NCBI GenBank assembly: GCA_024276075.1
Contig: JAJRXX010000029.1
Span: 1 to 34,524, forward strand
Direction: 5' to 3'
From: Planctomycetota bacterium
GTDB lineage: Bacteria; Planctomycetota; Phycisphaerae; Phycisphaerales; Phycisphaeraceae
Length of the DNA stretch: 34,524 bases
The notes beneath the pieces were generated by a model. The model was not told where the DNA came from. It did no database searches and saw only the letters and a list, made by a program, of their open reading frames with translations. Position 1 is the first letter of the stretch, and each line of letters starts with the position of its first letter. The position numbers and the translations under genes are program-made. Of this stretch, positions 2,512-29,468 are shown piece by piece.

Positions 2512-3008
2512 CCTATGATCTCCACACCAATCACCCGCAAGTCTCTAAACCCCACCACTCGTTGATACCGCCGTTAGCCAGACTGTGCGCCAAGCAATTA
2601 ACCTATTTTATGCTCAACACGCCTATCCTGCAATGCTTTATACCAATCAAGATTGATACTTACACGGCATCTGCAAACGCGAAGGCAAAACAAACAATAA
2701 CTTACCTTTACAACGCGCTAGAAATATACGCAATGCGTATTAAACAGGCCCATTCTCACCTCTCAACACAAAACATCACCCCACAAAAACGCCCATGCGT
2801 ACAAGTAAAATCTATGAACCGCCAGCTTCAAAAGCATTACGCATTGACCATGCCTACAACTTCCAGACATATCTCTTCAGATTTAGCTGACGCACCGCCC
2901 ATTTGGTCCGATAAGTTGCCCTTATTTTTAGGTTTTGCTTAGGTTCAGCCTTGCTCATCCCGATACATTAATTGGCCGTATATCTGCCGATGGGAGGAAG
3001 CTGTTATC
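2512..3008. other. Intergenic stretch between divergent genes, with one dispersed repeat
   Basis: No convincing gene is seen. An open frame crosses the region on the plus strand but has no family resemblance beyond the repeat at 2641-2743. The right end holds the GGGAGGAAG ribosome binding site of the coiled-coil gene at 3009. Promoters for both flanking genes should lie here, but none is clear enough to place. Confidence 0.5.
2641..2743 (-). repeat. Dispersed ~100-bp repeat, copy A
   Basis: It matches the copies at 8994-9100 and 29341-29442. The shared body runs from the palindrome ATACGCAATGCGTAT (2726-2740) through CTAGCGCGTTGTAAAG and TTTTGCCTTCGC on the minus strand to CAATCTTGATTGG. 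The plus-strand frame is open and reads IPIKID...SANAKAKQTITY...LYNALEIYAMRI. It lacks one codon present in the other copies. Confidence 0.85.
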
Positions 3009-3893
3009 ATGTCGGAACATCATACATTATCAGACGAAACGATTAAGTCGTCCGGTGTACCCGATCCCGATCAGACGCTAACGCTGCTGGGATCGTTTCT
3101 TCAACAACTCAAATCCTGGCAGCAGGAAAGCGGCGAGTACTACGAGCACTTCCGCGAGCGGCTCGAACATGTGGCCACGCAGCAGGCACAACTCGACCGC
3201 CTCAGAGCGGTCTTGGATACGCATCGCGCCAACATCGAAGCCCAACGCACCGAGCTCGAAGCCCAACGGCGCCATTCCGAACAGCAATGCCGAGAGATCG
3301 AAGACCAAAACCACGCCAATGAATTAGCGCGGCAGAAGATGACCGAGCAATGGGAAACGCTGGTGGAAGAGAAAACCGCGCTGACCCAACGCCGTCAGGA
3401 ATTCGATAAACAAGTCTTCCAACTCGAAGCCCAGCGGGCCCAACTCCGAACTACACGCGCACAAGTTGAAGGCCAGCGACAGCAGCTTGAAGATCAGCGT
3501 AAAAAACTACAGCACGGCCTTCGCCAAGTCGCTAGACGACAGAAACAGCTTGATAACAAGTGGGCCTCACTGAACCAGCAAGATAAAGCGTTGTCCGGCT
3601 CGACATCCACCCGACGCGCCACAAAATCCAAATCGACAAAAACCCGAAAGGCCAAGAGCGCTAAAAAACGAAGCGCCACTGCCAAAAACCGTACCCGGGT
3701 CAAAGCAACAGGCCGAGTAAAAACCAAGGCCAAGGCACGCAAAAGCACCTCGGCTAAAGCGGGCCGCACCACAAAGACACACAAGACGTCAACAAAACGA
3801 ACACGAAAGACAAAAAGATCAACCTCGACTCGGGTTCAAGCCCGTAAGAAGGCTACCCGAGGGCGTAGCACTACGAGCCGAAAACGTCGTTGA
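3009..3893 (+). CDS. Coiled-coil protein with histone-H1-like basic tail
   Basis: Not a family I can name. The 294 residues fall into three parts. Residues 22-55 carry a short motif (LLGSFLQQLKSWQQ) resembling the N-termini of the coiled-coil proteins at 4167 and 20062. Residues about 45-195 are a Q/E/R-rich heptad coiled coil. Residues about 196-294 are almost only K, R, S, T, A and G, with no acidic residue at all, like bacterial H1-like nucleoid proteins. The ATG is preceded by GGGAGGAAG. It lies 273 bases upstream of the 1021-residue gene on the same strand and may be co-transcribed. I infer that it binds DNA or RNA through the tail and multimerises through the coil. It has no signal peptide or membrane segment. 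Confidence 0.75.
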   Translation: MSEHHTLSDETIKSSGVPDPDQTLTLLGSFLQQLKSWQQESGEYYEHFRERLEHVATQQAQLDRLRAVLDTHRANIEAQRTELEAQRRHSEQQCREIEDQNHANELARQKMTEQWETLVEEKTALTQRRQEFDKQVFQLEAQRAQLRTTRAQVEGQRQQLEDQRKKLQHGLRQVARRQKQLDNKWASLNQQDKALSGSTSTRRATKSKSTKTRKAKSAKKRSATAKNRTRVKATGRVKTKAKARKSTSAKAGRTTKTHKTSTKRTRKTKRSTSTRVQARKKATRGRSTTSRKRR

Positions 3894-4166: not shown

Positions 4167-7100
4167 ATGCCGCAACAGCCCCCTGACACGCAATCTCAGA
4201 CCTCCCCTGACCGACAGCCCGTGTCGGACGCCAACAGGTCGATTTATCTGCTTGACGATCTCGATCGTCAACTCAAGCAGTTGCAGTCCTGGGAACAGGA
4301 CCACGAGCCCCTTTTCGAGCAGCTAAATAAACAAATCGCAATGGTGGCCGGGATTGAGAAGAAAATCACCGCCAAAGCCAAAGACCTTGACCAACTCGAA
4401 TCCCAGTTCCAGGTTAAGCGTGCCGAAGTCGAGGCCATGCGCGCTCACGCCGACCAACAGCAACAACACCTTGACAACCAGAGACATCAGCTTAGCCATC
4501 ATCAAAATGAACTGGCTAGGCACCACGAACGGATCGAATGGATTGCTCATCAAAAGATTCAGCTAGATGAACGCGGGCGTGAGCTAGAGCACATAAGCAG
4601 GGAAACCGAGAACAAATTTTTCCAAGCACAAGCCGAGCACGAGCGCGTCGTTGAACAACAGCAGCAACTCGATCACTGGCGACAAGAACTTGACCATCAA
4701 AGCCACCAACTTAACACACAACAAAACGAGCTTGCTCAACACCGTCAACATCTCGAACAACAGCAACATGAATTAGCCAACCAGCGTCATCAACTTGATC
4801 AGGACCTGGCCAAACACCACGAAGAGGCTAACCAACGCCAACACGATCTCGATCAACAGAAAACCCACATCCAGCAACAACGGCAAGAGCTTGACGCAAA
4901 ACACGCCGAGATTGAACAACGACAAAACGACCTAAACGGTCAACGTCATCAACTCGATCAGGACCTTGCCAAACACCACGAAGAGGCTAACCAACGCCAA
5001 CACGATCTCGATCAACAGAAAACCCACATCCAACAGCAACGGCAAGAGCTTGACGCAAAACATGCCGAGCTTGAGAAGCAACAGAACAACCTAAACGGTC
5101 AACGTCATCAACTCGATCAGGACTTGGCCAAACACCACGAAGAGGCTAACCAACGCCAACACGATCTCGATCAACAGAAATCGCGGATCCAGCAGCAGCG
5201 GCAAGAGCTCGACGCAAAGCACACCGAAATTGAGCAGCAGCAGAACGACTTAAACGACCAACGCCAACAGCTCGATCGGGACCTGACTAAACACCACGAA
5301 AAAGCTAGCCAACGCCAGCACGATCTCGATCAACAGAAAGCACACATTCAGCAGCAACGGCAAGAGCTCGACGCAAAGCGTGTCGAACTTGAACTCCAGC
5401 AGTCGCAACTCGGGAATCAGTGGCAAGAACTTGACGCAAAGCGATCCGAGACCAATCAACAGCGAGACGACCTAACTTCGAATCGCAATAGACTCGAACA
5501 GCAGCGGCAACTTCACAACGAAGAGCACCAACAACAACTCGACACGATTAATCAACGCGAAGCCGAGATTGCCACACGAGACCAGGAACTCAAAGAGTTA
5601 CACAGCGAATTCGAAGCAAAACAAGCAGAACTCGAATCGGCCTCCAACCAACTCAACCAAGAACGGGAACAATTCAAGCGCCAAGTTGATGATTGGAATC
5701 AACGCCGCACACAAGACGAACAGCAAAAACAAGATACAAATCAACAACTCGATCAAACCAATCAACGACAACAAGAACTCGATCAACGCCACAAACAGCT
5801 CGAACAAGAATGGCAAGCACTAAGAGACAAACAAGCTCAGGTTGATCAACAGCAAAAAGACCTCGACAGCCAACACCAACAAATAGAACAGCAGCGCCAA
5901 GACCTGATTAACCAAAATCAGGAATCCGACCAACGAATTAACGAGCCCGGCAAGCAACCCCAAGAAAGCACCGGTGATTCACAGCACCAAAATGACCTAA
6001 CACACGAGCAGGCCCAGATGATCGCACAGCAGGAATCACTGCTTGCTCAACGATCCCAGGAAATCGAACAGCTTCGTAAACAGCTTGAATCTGTACCGGC
6101 CAGTCAACCCGAACAAACAAACACCCAACCCACACAGCAAAAGCCTGACAAGATTGAAAAAGAACTTGCCGACTTGGAGCAGCAGCGTCAAAAACTGGCC
6201 ATCGAGTCAAAACAATTCGAACAACAACAGCATGACCTAGCGAAACGCCGTGAAGAAGTCGAAAAACAACGCTTCGAGATTTCCGGTCACTGGGAACAGT
6301 TTACACACCAACGCGATGAACTAACCAAGCACCAGGAAGAACTCGCAAAGGGTCAAGAGGAGCTGAATTCCCTACAGACAACACTCAAGCAAAAGGTCGA
6401 GGAAGCCGCCCAGCAGGAAAAGCAACTCGCGCAACGCGCCCAAGAACTAGAGCAACTCAGCGACAACCTCGATAAACACCGAACTCAAACCGATCTTCTA
6501 CACAGCCAGACCGCACAACAACAGAAACAGATCGATCAGAAACAACTCGACCTAACCGGTCAGCAAACGGAACTCGAAAAACGTCAGCGTGAGCTAAACC
6601 AACAACAAAACGAAATCGACCAACAGAAACACGCGCTAGCCGAGTTAGCCCGCCAACTCAGACAAAAACGAAAAGACCTTGAAAAGTACGAAGAACGCGT
6701 AGCAGCACTAAAGAAGCAAGAAACCCTGCTAAACGAACGATCCCAAGAGCTTGAGGAATTAGCCGGAAACCTAGAATCAAAACGAACCGAAGCCGCCGCG
6801 ACACAACGGCGGCTGATAAAGCAAACACAGGAGCTAGAATACCAGCAACAGGAACAAACCCAGGAGCATCAGCAAGAAGAGATTCGAATCAACGAGCAAC
6901 GAGAAATCTTGGCTCAAACGAAACGATTCCTAGCCACCAGTGAAGAGATCATGGCTAGACGCTGGGCAACTGGGCGCGCGTCTGAATGGGTCATCCGCGC
7001 AGCCCTGGCGCTCGTGATGCTAGGGCTGTTCAGCTACTCGATGGCGTGGTACCTGGTACCCAAATACTCACCCTTCCTGATCCAGGACGGGCTGCTGGAA

Positions 7101-7232
7101 TTGGCAGCGGTTATTTTCGGTGGATCGGTCTTTGTGACGCTGATTGCTTCGGTCGCCACACGACAATTTTTGCTCAAAAGAGACCGCGTCCTACAAGTTT
7201 CCGAAGAACCTGACCCGCTGCAAGTCGATTAA
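4167..7232 (+). CDS. Giant membrane-anchored coiled-coil protein with tandem repeats
   Basis: This 1021-residue protein matches no family I recognise. Its N-terminal motif LLDDLDRQLKQLQSWEQ (about 27-43) is shared with two other genes here. An extremely Gln-rich coiled coil follows (about 60-925), including four tandem 53-residue repeats at 208-419. The C-terminal module is ARRWATGR, a transmembrane helix (about 942-964), a short loop (KYSPFLIQDG), a second transmembrane helix (about 977-997), then a basic tail. Positive charges before the first and after the second helix put both ends in the cytoplasm. At the standard helical rise the coil would be roughly 125 nm long. The ATG follows AGGAGTGAGAAGG. 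The same C-terminal module closes the 355-residue protein at 20062. A structural or tethering role is inferred; it is not an SMC protein, as no ATPase motifs are seen. Confidence 0.8.
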   Translation: MPQQPPDTQSQTSPDRQPVSDANRSIYLLDDLDRQLKQLQSWEQDHEPLFEQLNKQIAMVAGIEKKITAKAKDLDQLESQFQVKRAEVEAMRAHADQQQQHLDNQRHQLSHHQNELARHHERIEWIAHQKIQLDERGRELEHISRETENKFFQAQAEHERVVEQQQQLDHWRQELDHQSHQLNTQQNELAQHRQHLEQQQHELANQRHQLDQDLAKHHEEANQRQHDLDQQKTHIQQQRQELDAKHAEIEQRQNDLNGQRHQLDQDLAKHHEEANQRQHDLDQQKTHIQQQRQELDAKHAELEKQQNNLNGQRHQLDQDLAKHHEEANQRQHDLDQQKSRIQQQRQELDAKHTEIEQQQNDLNDQRQQLDRDLTKHHEKASQRQHDLDQQKAHIQQQRQELDAKRVELELQQSQLGNQWQELDAKRSETNQQRDDLTSNRNRLEQQRQLHNEEHQQQLDTINQREAEIATRDQELKELHSEFEAKQAELESASNQLNQEREQFKRQVDDWNQRRTQDEQQKQDTNQQLDQTNQRQQELDQRHKQLEQEWQALRDKQAQVDQQQKDLDSQHQQIEQQRQDLINQNQESDQRINEPGKQPQESTGDSQHQNDLTHEQAQMIAQQESLLAQRSQEIEQLRKQLESVPASQPEQTNTQPTQQKPDKIEKELADLEQQRQKLAIESKQFEQQQHDLAKRREEVEKQRFEISGHWEQFTHQRDELTKHQEELAKGQEELNSLQTTLKQKVEEAAQQEKQLAQRAQELEQLSDNLDKHRTQTDLLHSQTAQQQKQIDQKQLDLTGQQTELEKRQRELNQQQNEIDQQKHALAELARQLRQKRKDLEKYEERVAALKKQETLLNERSQELEELAGNLESKRTEAAATQRRLIKQTQELEYQQQEQTQEHQQEEIRINEQREILAQTKRFLATSEEIMARRWATGRASEWVIRAALALVMLGLFSYSMAWYLVPKYSPFLIQDGLLELAAVIFGGSVFVTLIASVATRQFLLKRDRVLQVSEEPDPLQVD
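4788..5423 (+). repeat. Four tandem 159-bp coding repeats
   Basis: Units begin at 4788, 4947, 5106 and 5265, exactly 159 bases (53 codons) apart. The first three are nearly identical at DNA level (for example AAACACCACGAAGAGGCTAA in each); the fourth is more diverged. Fifty-three residues equal six heptads plus one eleven-residue step, so repeat addition keeps the coiled-coil register only with a regular stutter. Confidence 0.9.
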
Positions 7233-8805: not shown

Positions 8806-9557
8806 ATTACACCCTCAATAAAAGACCACACATAGGCTTCTCCCATATGCCTTATAGACCTATTTGTCTCCAGCGTAGGCAAAGCACCCAAGGTCCAAGC
8901 GGGCAAATCCCCGTGATTCGTCATGCTGTGATATCTCATACCGCCTTCCAGCCAATCGACCTTTCGCAAAAAGCGTGGCACAGAGACAACGGGTTATACG
9001 CATTGCGTATAGTTCTAGCGCGTTGTAAAGGGTGTAAGTTATTGTCTGTTTTGCCTTCGCATTCGCAGACGCCCCGCAAGTATTAATCTTGATTGGTATT
9101 AAGGTTGGTTTGACCACTTCGTCGTTCCCTAAGAAATACGAGCAAAGAGCCTCGACAACTACTCTCTATCGCAAATTTTCTCTTGGGAAGGCAGGAGCGC
9201 AGAACTCATTAACTCAAAACCCAATCCGCGCTGTTCCCAATTTGCAGCTTACCCGAGCATTTTTACGTTTTTGTTTTGGGACAAGCTTTTACTGTCATCT
9301 ACTTTTTGGCGTTACAAACAGGATCTATTGCAGACCCTATACTGTTTAAAATAGTCTCAAGCGTTTGGAAGGTTATCGTGACTACTTTTTTTAAACAACC
9401 TGAACGGCCACTACTTCACATTAGTATACCAATTGACACACAACATGTAAATCTCTCAAGCCCACGCATACCGCCTACTCACTTTTACCTACAGGCAGTT
9501 CAATATCACCTCCAATACGGCAGTTGTCTTTATTGTCTATCCACTAGCGATCCAAGA
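8806..9557. other. Long intergenic stretch with one dispersed repeat
   Basis: Apart from the repeat at 8994-9100 I see no gene, RNA or mobile element. Short open frames on both strands show no recognisable family or ribosome binding site. The left edge should hold the promoter of the GH16-like gene. Confidence 0.5.
8994..9100 (+). repeat. Dispersed ~100-bp repeat, copy B
   Basis: Opposite orientation to copy A and the same as copy C. The palindrome ATACGCATTGCGTAT is at 8996-9010 and the far end is AATCTTGATTGG. On the minus strand the frame is open and reads IPIKINTCGASANAKAKQ, then LYNALELYAMRI. Confidence 0.88.
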
Positions 9558-20061: not shown

Positions 20062-21129
20062 ATGACTCCCACCGATCCAACCGAGCAACCCTTGTCCGAT
20101 CAAACCCGTAACCAATCAGAGTTTACCGATACCCAGCAGCCACTGGACCTGTTGAATGAATTAGACCAACGTCTCGATCAATTGCGGTCTTGGGAGCAAG
20201 GCCACGAGCGATTGGTACAGGAAATGCGCAGCCAAGTCGAAGCCGTAGAACTGCGTAAAGAACAACTGGAACGCCAGGGCCGCAGCCTCGACTTGCTCCG
20301 CCGCGACCTACATAAAAAACAAGACGAACTCGAAGCGTCTCATCAGCATCTTGATGTACAACAAAGCCAAGTCGAAAAGCATCGACGCGAATTAACCGTT
20401 AAACAACTGCGGACCGAAAAACAGCAGCACGATCTGGACTCCAAGCACCAAGAAATCCAGATGCTCGAACAAGAGCTCAGCTCAAAGCGCCAACAGCTCC
20501 AGGCGTCACGAGACGAATTAGACACTCAACAAGAAAAAGTCAAACAACAGCAGCAGGAACTCACTCAACAGCAAAAATCTCTAGAAAAACTCCACCACGA
20601 AGTCGCTAAAAAGAAAAAATCACTCGAACAAGACCGTAACCAAGTCGAGCAGGATCGAGAAGAACTCGACCGCATCCGTGAAGAAGTTTCTACACAACAA
20701 CAGATCGCCGTTCGGCTGCGCGTTGAGATGTCAGAGCAACAGGGAGATATCGAAAAGCAGCAACGTGAACTCGCCGGCCAACTAGAACAACGAACGCTAC
20801 TAAACGACGTCAAGATGTGCCTGAAGGAAAGTGAAGAGGAAATGGTCCGGCGTTGGGCAACCGGCCGAACATGGGAGCTGGTGACCAGGGTTGTGCTGCT
20901 GCTGGTCTTTCTAGCAGCCTTCAGCTATATGGCCGGGGAAAAGTTACAAGACAAATACGCGCCGATGCTCATCAAAGACGGCAAACTCGAATTAGCTGCC
21001 GTTATCTTCGCCGGGTTTCTCACGACCATCCTTATCACCGTCGTGCCCTTAAGACTTTGGCTACGCCGTAGAAGCCGTGTACTCGACGAAAAAAAGCAGA
21101 AAGCGATCCTCACTCAGATAGATGAATAG
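20062..21129 (+). CDS. Membrane-anchored coiled-coil protein, paralogue of the gene at 4167
   Basis: A 355-residue version of the giant coiled-coil protein. The N-terminal motif is LLNELDQRLDQLRSWEQGHE. A Q/E/K-rich coiled coil (about 50-255) is followed by the shared C-terminal module: VRRWATGR, helix one (about 274-291), KYAPMLIKDGKLELAAVIFAG leading into helix two (about 309-329), and a basic tail with LRRRSR. The spacing of RRWATGR, the loop and ELAAVIF is the same as in the 1021-residue protein, while the coil is about four times shorter and lacks the 53-residue repeats. Both ends should face the cytoplasm. The ATG at 20062 has only a weak ribosome binding site. Function unknown; a scaffold or tether is inferred. 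Confidence 0.78.
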   Translation: MTPTDPTEQPLSDQTRNQSEFTDTQQPLDLLNELDQRLDQLRSWEQGHERLVQEMRSQVEAVELRKEQLERQGRSLDLLRRDLHKKQDELEASHQHLDVQQSQVEKHRRELTVKQLRTEKQQHDLDSKHQEIQMLEQELSSKRQQLQASRDELDTQQEKVKQQQQELTQQQKSLEKLHHEVAKKKKSLEQDRNQVEQDREELDRIREEVSTQQQIAVRLRVEMSEQQGDIEKQQRELAGQLEQRTLLNDVKMCLKESEEEMVRRWATGRTWELVTRVVLLLVFLAAFSYMAGEKLQDKYAPMLIKDGKLELAAVIFAGFLTTILITVVPLRLWLRRRSRVLDEKKQKAILTQIDE

Positions 21130-21163: not shown

Positions 21164-21324
21164 TACCAATCAAGACTAGAGCAATTGGCGTCATTAATCT
21201 TCATTGACCGGGTGGCACGGCTTGCTTGCAAGCAGTGAAATACAGATGTTTGTTGCACCTACTATCCAATCAAGATGGAAAATATTGACGCCAGTCGCTC
21301 CAGAACTATACGCAATGCGTATTA
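21164..21324 (-). repeat. Degenerate or rearranged copy D of the dispersed repeat
   Basis: Only the ends are recognisable. TACCAATCAAGA occurs at 21164 and a second CCAATCAAGAT near 21265. The other end has AGAACTATACGCAATGCGTA, with the full 15-bp palindrome at 21308-21322. The middle does not match copies A-C. It lies between two converging genes. Confidence 0.5.
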
Positions 21325-21369
21325 CCTGCTTCGTTGTTATGAAACCATCCCTCTGTAACGAAATTTATA

Positions 21370-29340: not shown

Positions 29341-29442
29341 ATACGCATTGCGTATAGTTCTAGCGCGTTGTAAAGGATGTAAGTGATTGTCTGTTTTGCC
29401 TTCGCGTTCGCAGATGCCGCGCAAGTATTAATCTTGATTGGG
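29341..29442 (+). repeat. Dispersed ~100-bp repeat, copy C
   Basis: Closest to copy B. It starts with ATACGCATTGCGTAT (29341-29355) and ends AATCTTGATTGGGA. The minus-strand frame is open: IPIKINTCAASANAKAKQ then LYNALELYAMRI. It lies directly upstream of the thioredoxin-like gene. Confidence 0.88.
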
Positions 29443-29468
29443 ATGACTACATAATAAAGGTACACCTC

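Follow-up and report, generated by a model that had tools for sequence, protein, structure and literature searches.

The stretch of DNA analysed in this work (the window, 34,524 nucleotides) is contig C21 of a planctomycete genome (G000; 2.88 Mb in 77 contigs, 95.8% complete). It carries three genes of one coiled-coil family within about 18 kb. The first of them, P0001, is the subject of this study; its parts and the two paralogues are as follows:

3009..3893, + strand: P0001, a soluble coiled-coil protein of 294 amino acids with a basic, H1-like tail; SD-like sequence GGGAGGAAG at 2992-3000, highest 19-residue hydropathy 0.12
3048..3188, + strand: N-terminal family motif of P0001, residues about 14-60 (from profile scores)
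3066..3593, + strand: single predicted helix of P0001, residues 20-195 (from structure prediction and heptads)
3594..3890, + strand: predicted disordered basic tail of P0001, residues 196-294 (from composition and the model)
4167..7232, + strand: paralogue of 1021 amino acids (W4167), with a long Q-rich coil and a C-terminal hairpin of two TM segments (from sequence and tree)
20062..21129, + strand: paralogue of 355 amino acids, with a coil and a C-terminal two-TM hairpin (from sequence and tree)

P0001 is an intact frame of 294 codons, which starts with ATG and is preceded by the SD-like sequence. The properties computed for the protein are membership in the family, a predicted helix, the absence of a TM segment, the composition of the tail and kinship to soluble paralogues. 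In the single-sequence AlphaFold2 model one helix extends from residue 20 to 195, mostly with pLDDT values above 90, and the tail has values of about 50. The net charge of the first 195 residues is -2, that of the tail is +41. The hydropathy profile revealed no TM segment, and the C-terminal two-TM module of the hairpin branch is absent from P0001. Over residues 55-188 of the coil, one position is hydrophobic in 18 of 20 heptads; the strength of this periodicity was matched by 6 of 2000 shuffled sequences for period 7, and by 26 of 2000 for period 3.5. The 99 residues of the tail comprise 22 K, 19 R, 22 T, 14 S, 12 A, 4 G, 3 V and one each of N, H and Q, that is 41 K/R and 52 S/T/A/G, with no D or E, no proline and no KPAA repeat. 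An earlier reading of the DNA, made from the sequence alone, had described a coiled coil, a terminal stretch of about 99 K/R/S/T/A/G residues without Asp or Glu, and a membrane hairpin encoded by the neighbouring gene; the heptads, the composition count and the C-terminal two-TM hairpin of the 4167-7232 product bear out all three.

Comparison of P0001 with solved structures yielded a best E value of only 0.2, and its Pfam matches include no phasin family. Identity with SMC, Rad50 or HmpF was rejected, the profile scores being far under the curated cut-offs (22.3 bits vs. 729.4 for SMC, 34 vs. 200 for HmpF); we read these matches as coil resemblance.

The distance between P0001 and the 4167-7232 gene is 273 bp, and each gene has its own SD-like sequence. 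In both hairpin proteins the hairpin is flanked on either side by arginine-rich sequence, which, by the positive-inside rule, suggests that the coil is cytoplasmic. Within the coil of the 4167-7232 gene there is a 159-bp tandem repeat of 3.7 copies (4785-5377). A repeat of about 104 bp that contains the palindrome ATACGCAATGCGTAT is dispersed over the window, at 2636-2740, 8996-9103 and 29341-29444, and partially at 21296-21340; the block that runs from P0001 to a GH16-like gene lies between two copies in inverted orientation. The genome contains this repeat in at least 40 places including the query, the others being 84-91% identical to it (40 scored of 148 candidates). Its folding as single-stranded DNA is not unusual (z -1.19), and the window has no Rfam match. 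At the contig end (32658-34524) there are repeats of 220-300 nt, most of them spaced 315-318 bp.

The N-terminal motif and the family it defines

The consensus of the family motif is PDxxQxLxLLxDLExRLxQLKxWQQxS, three residues of which are missing in P0001. Because coil composition alone inflates the scores of the full profile, the motif was scored by itself. With motif-only profiles built without P0001 its N-terminus received 46.2, 24.5 and 22.1 bits, compared with control maxima of 7.6 bits over 829 real coil segments and 11.2 bits over 2000 shuffles (827-828 of the segments and 1945-1959 of the shuffles were actually reported by the scoring). The full 70-column profiles gave 59.3, 42.9 and 38.8 bits for P0001 and 35.8, 35.2 and 30.5 bits for its own block-shuffled coil; they were not relied on, since composition can carry block shuffles up to 35.8 bits. 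The sister protein C25 of the same genome, scored with profiles lacking the soluble branch, received 9.8 and 6.3 bits, on a level with the controls, thus by this measure the motif is weak in C25. Judged by the motif-only scores, the N-terminal similarity of P0001 to the two membrane-hairpin proteins of the window is real, and the SW(E/Q)Q motif previously noticed in P0001 and its neighbour held up against the controls.

A profile of the N-terminal region, built from 18 proteins of 13 genomes, picked up members, at E <= 0.01, in 39 of the 51 genomes from its taxonomic family. Of 301 genomes taken from the order, 88 had a match at E <= 0.001, 38 of the 88 belonging to the taxonomic family. It must be noted that the 13 genomes behind the profile are part of both counts, and that at the E <= 0.01 cut the weakest matches of short members reach E 0.00135 (G019). 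By these profile matches the motif-plus-coil proteins are a widespread, unnamed family of Phycisphaerae, of which we found no description in the titles and abstract openings of the open-licence literature. P0001 had been called the third member of its family: the membership stands but the count does not, as G000 has at least five members. One of these, the C22 protein, is cut by the contig end and its own C-terminus lies outside the sequence.

The members of the first kind combine a long coil with two TM segments. Between these segments, ten proteins of relatives (L024, L027-L031, L033, L034, L036, L037) have about 105 extra residues that are missing from the two hairpin proteins of the window and from G012:C36, where there is a short hairpin instead; G012:C6 (L070) looks the same as these short-hairpin proteins. 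The stretch between the TM segments gave a weak Pfam Wzz signal in two of nine scanned members (best E 0.0033, 18.1 bits vs. a cut-off of 25.5), and in the comparison with solved structures three of the eight matches listed were Wzc chains (best E 0.21). The Wzz profile had no match in G000.

The second kind, soluble proteins with an acidic end, is represented by C25 (703 amino acids) and G012:C5. The net charge of the last 95 residues of C25 is -25, that of the acidic protein of G012 is -22. In two loci (L021, 7024-9135; L022, 6664-9135) the acidic-tailed soluble paralogue is followed by a gene that is homologous in both genomes and that we take to be DUF1338-like. A search of the contig database for further related loci returned one, which was G012:C5 again.

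The third kind comprises short soluble proteins, found in eleven genomes, with 168-257 amino acids in the frames read (one ends at 143 owing to the contig end). The short members of genus g9 (L072-L074, L076, L077, L079) have a basic N-terminal extension in six of six genomes, with net charges from +6 to +11, thus a basic end recurs in the family; the short members of the five other genomes lack the extension (net -3 to +4). In each of these eleven genomes a longer member is listed as well. Two TM segments are present in the four longer members that were read at full length (G026, G008, G019, G005); no TM segment was seen in the 308-residue frame of G017, and the frame of G035 is cut by the locus end. 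The neighbours of the short-member genes are conserved within g9 (a STAS protein in five of six loci, and others) and within G005/G034; across genera no family was found in common except an ABC-transporter link.

G000 is the only one of the 51 genomes in which two family genes, in separate frames, lie no more than 20 kb apart (E <= 0.01), in a count where its genus is represented by G000 only and where contig breaks could hide pairs elsewhere. G005 and G034 each have two family genes on a single contig of chromosome size, separated by about 2-3 Mb. The sequence-only reading had proposed, as a check on its idea of a link between nucleoid and membrane, to look for conservation of the two genes side by side; the 51 genomes showed no second case, a result that goes against the idea, and the adjacency of P0001 and the 4167-7232 gene is no evidence for such a linker.

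Coil register and kinship of P0001

One register over 20 heptads is common to P0001, C25, G012:C5 and the hairpin protein encoded at 20062-21129. The coil of the adjacent hairpin protein (4167-7232) shifts phase and departs from the register of P0001. As far as heptads can tell, the register would fit hetero-assembly of P0001 with C25 and with the 20062-21129 protein.

P0001 is 33% identical to C25 and 30% to G012:C5, and about 180 residues can be aligned without internal gaps. Two landmark tryptophans are 148 residues apart in all three proteins. Phylogenetic trees joined P0001, C25 and G012:C5 with supports of 99/98 (18 rows, without G012:C36) and 96/85 (19 rows, including G012:C36). Within this group C25 and G012:C5 were the closest pair (97/87 and 97/90, respectively) and P0001 fell outside, thus P0001 looks older than their split if the root lies outside the three. 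Pairing of P0001 with W4167 was rejected (p-AU 0.0035); grouping of P0001 with five hairpin-type proteins was not formally rejected (p-AU 0.069), and the groups for these tests were named after seeing a first tree. L032, L035, L038, L083-L088 and the short members are in neither tree. G010:C320 lacks the 148-residue spacing, does not group with the soluble branch and was not counted there. We regard the trees as supporting, not decisive, because they come from coil sequences, have long branches and leave most of the deep forks unresolved, and because the groups were chosen post hoc.

With the same reservation, the nearest relatives of P0001 appear to be the two soluble acidic-tailed proteins, with which it has the N-terminal motif, the coil register and the tryptophan spacing in common. 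The sisters extend the coil by several hundred residues and have acidic ends, whereas P0001 stops about ten residues past the second tryptophan in a basic tail. The earlier suggestion that P0001 swaps the membrane module of its neighbour for a histone-like tail is not the relationship seen in the tree, the spacing or the register, and P0001 as a hairpin protein with an exchanged end was rejected as unsupported by these three, with the p-AU of the wider grouping as given above.

The basic tail

Origin of the tail by frameshift or read-through was considered and rejected: the other two forward frames contain stops and no coil. When the six-frame translation of the tail region was compared with the rest of the paralogues' coil, the best match had E 0.026 with composition correction switched off. 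The codon choice of the tail fits translation, its CAI being 0.70 compared with 0.624 ± 0.031 for random synonymous sequences, 15 of 2000 of which were as high. Contrary to coding, the composition-based score of the tail (-0.153) is lower than that of a stop-ridden other frame (-0.028). The tail region contains 27 different codons, thus it is not a microsatellite.

Among 358 putative genes (at least 150 amino acids, from the window and loci longer than 7 kb, either end counted) P0001 was the only one with a 99-residue end containing at least 28 K/R and at most 3 D/E. This count excluded the 3.3-kb loci chosen for matches to HC2 (PF07382, the chlamydial-type H1-like family), three of six of which (L090, L091, L095) hold such lysine/arginine-rich ORFs. 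A search with the tail in the 51 genomes of the taxonomic family matched G000 itself only, an absence which is weak evidence because composition correction makes the search insensitive. No orthologue carrying this tail turned up, so the case for selection on it depends on a single sequence. The HC2 Pfam profile had no match in G000 at E <= 0.01; it had matches in 16 of the 51 genomes, seven of them above the cut-off. In L091 (1462-2316) and L095 (1507-2274) lysine-rich H1-like N-terminal extensions precede another core, presumably of DksA type.

Possible functions and comparison with known systems

P0001 is a real, somewhat unusual protein of a widespread unnamed family. The explanation that we favour, and think somewhat likelier to be right than wrong, is that it assembles into an oligomeric rod and binds DNA non-specifically through its tails, a build like that of AlgP, PhaF and FrzCD, with no kinship to them implied. 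P0001 would be a soluble cytoplasmic coiled-coil protein of the Phycisphaerae family defined by the short N-terminal motif. The motif and the helix of residues 20-195 (some 26 nm long when helical throughout) probably drive self-assembly into a small oligomer, in which each chain would present a disordered +41 tail that could bind DNA by charge, without sequence specificity. One oligomer might then bridge or coat the nucleoid. DNA binding by the tail is likely. Against this explanation, RNA, ribosomes, acidic proteins or anionic lipid would suit a polybasic tail just as well, and the basic extensions of the g9 proteins are weaker than the tail of P0001 and sit at the opposite end, while the short members of five other genomes lack them. 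The missing proline and KPAA repeats, the lack of an HC2 match in G000, the single sequence in which the tail is seen and the low motif score of C25 also count against it. Two HU-type matches in G000 indicate that ordinary nucleoid proteins are also present.

Physical linkage of nucleoid and membrane, in which hetero-assembly of the coil of P0001 with the hairpin paralogues would place the basic tail on DNA and the hairpins in the membrane, is a minority hypothesis that we consider unlikely. It can draw on the motif present on both P0001 and the hairpin proteins, the register that the 20062-21129 protein keeps with P0001 over 20 heptads, the cytoplasmic coil suggested by the arginine-rich flanks of both hairpins, the closeness of the three family genes and the longer members that accompany the short ones in 11 of 11 genomes, with two TM segments in the four read at full length. 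It is opposed by the absence of the pair as neighbours from the other genomes surveyed, by the solubility of the closest kin of P0001, by the phase change in the coil of the adjacent hairpin protein, and by the 273 bp between the two genes, each with an SD-like sequence. Co-assembly of P0001 with the acidic-tailed C25, so that the basic tail would mainly neutralise or compete and DNA would be secondary, is quite unlikely. The identical tryptophan spacing, the common register, the sister grouping in the trees and the opposite charges of the ends (-25 vs. +41) speak for it, but the tails would be at different distances along the rods (294 vs. 703 amino acids), and G012 has an acidic protein with no basic-tailed partner found in the searches. 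It has also been considered that one coil family makes up a whole nucleoid-envelope scaffold, whose members, alike in motif and coil register but with interchangeable ends (hairpin, acidic or H1-like basic), would co-assemble and by the ratio of their ends set the tightness of nucleoid-membrane contact, with the short g9 members with a basic N-terminus and their longer member acting likewise; this, too, strikes us as quite improbable.

We hold it rather unlikely that the tail binds, not DNA, but another polyanion (RNA, ribosomes, polyphosphate) or an anionic membrane. Charge alone does not choose the ligand, and AlgP was found at polyphosphate granules (PMC9239181). Against this stands that Ppk1, Ppk2 and PhaC had no match at E <= 0.001 in the 95.8% complete genome, which makes polyphosphate or PHA granules less likely and bears on granules, not on RNA; a role of P0001 as a granule tether on polyphosphate or PHA was rejected on the same ground. 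Very improbable, finally, is a decaying or accidental copy, in which a truncated paralogue would read through into a basic tail that has no meaning. The lack of an orthologue in our searches, the position of P0001 among dispersed repeats and the weak composition-based coding score of the tail would agree with it; the SD-like start and intact frame, the codon choice of the tail above random, and the core aligning with the sisters over about 180 residues without internal gaps argue against it, as does the branching outside the C25/G012:C5 pair, which does not look recent if the root is outside the three.

Much about the condensed nucleoids of planctomycetes is unsettled, and DNA-type tails and membrane anchors on coils in register with each other provide a short list of genes for testing a physical link between nucleoid and membrane. 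Even if the explanation turns out to be ordinary, a widespread unnamed family, matched in 39 of the 51 genomes from the taxonomic family, has been outlined.

It is useful to compare our preferred reading, the DNA-binding oligomeric rod, with three characterized systems. AlgP of Pseudomonas aeruginosa has, like P0001, a predicted helical N-terminus followed by a long disordered basic tail of H1 type; a fragment of its C-terminal domain and KPAA peptides bind DNA, the protein associates with polyphosphate granules, and it was proposed to tie something to the chromosome (PMC9239181). The likeness is one of description, not of sequence: the tail of AlgP consists of KPAA repeats whereas that of P0001 lacks proline, and AlgP acts at polyphosphate granules whereas the genome of P0001 has no Ppk1 or Ppk2 match. 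PhaF of Pseudomonas putida is a tetramer with a leucine zipper, and its helix and oligomerising coiled coil have predicted counterparts in P0001; its C-terminal domain was modelled around DNA by the authors (PMC3574117). PhaF differs in its PHA-binding amphipathic helix and short zipper, and no PhaC match was found in G000. P0001 was not filed with AlgP, PhaF or FrzCD because it has no KPAA repeats and its genome has no Ppk1, Ppk2 or PhaC match; by prediction, it has the architecture of AlgP and PhaF, a helical N-terminus followed by a disordered, basic tail at the C-terminal end. FrzCD of Myxococcus xanthus, which is likened to P0001 by description, is a chemoreceptor whose tail is N-terminal; it is cytoplasmic and binds the nucleoid through this positively charged tail independently of DNA sequence (PMC5716589), as we propose for P0001. 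With P0001, a coil core other than that of AlgP or PhaF is seen to carry an H1-like tail.
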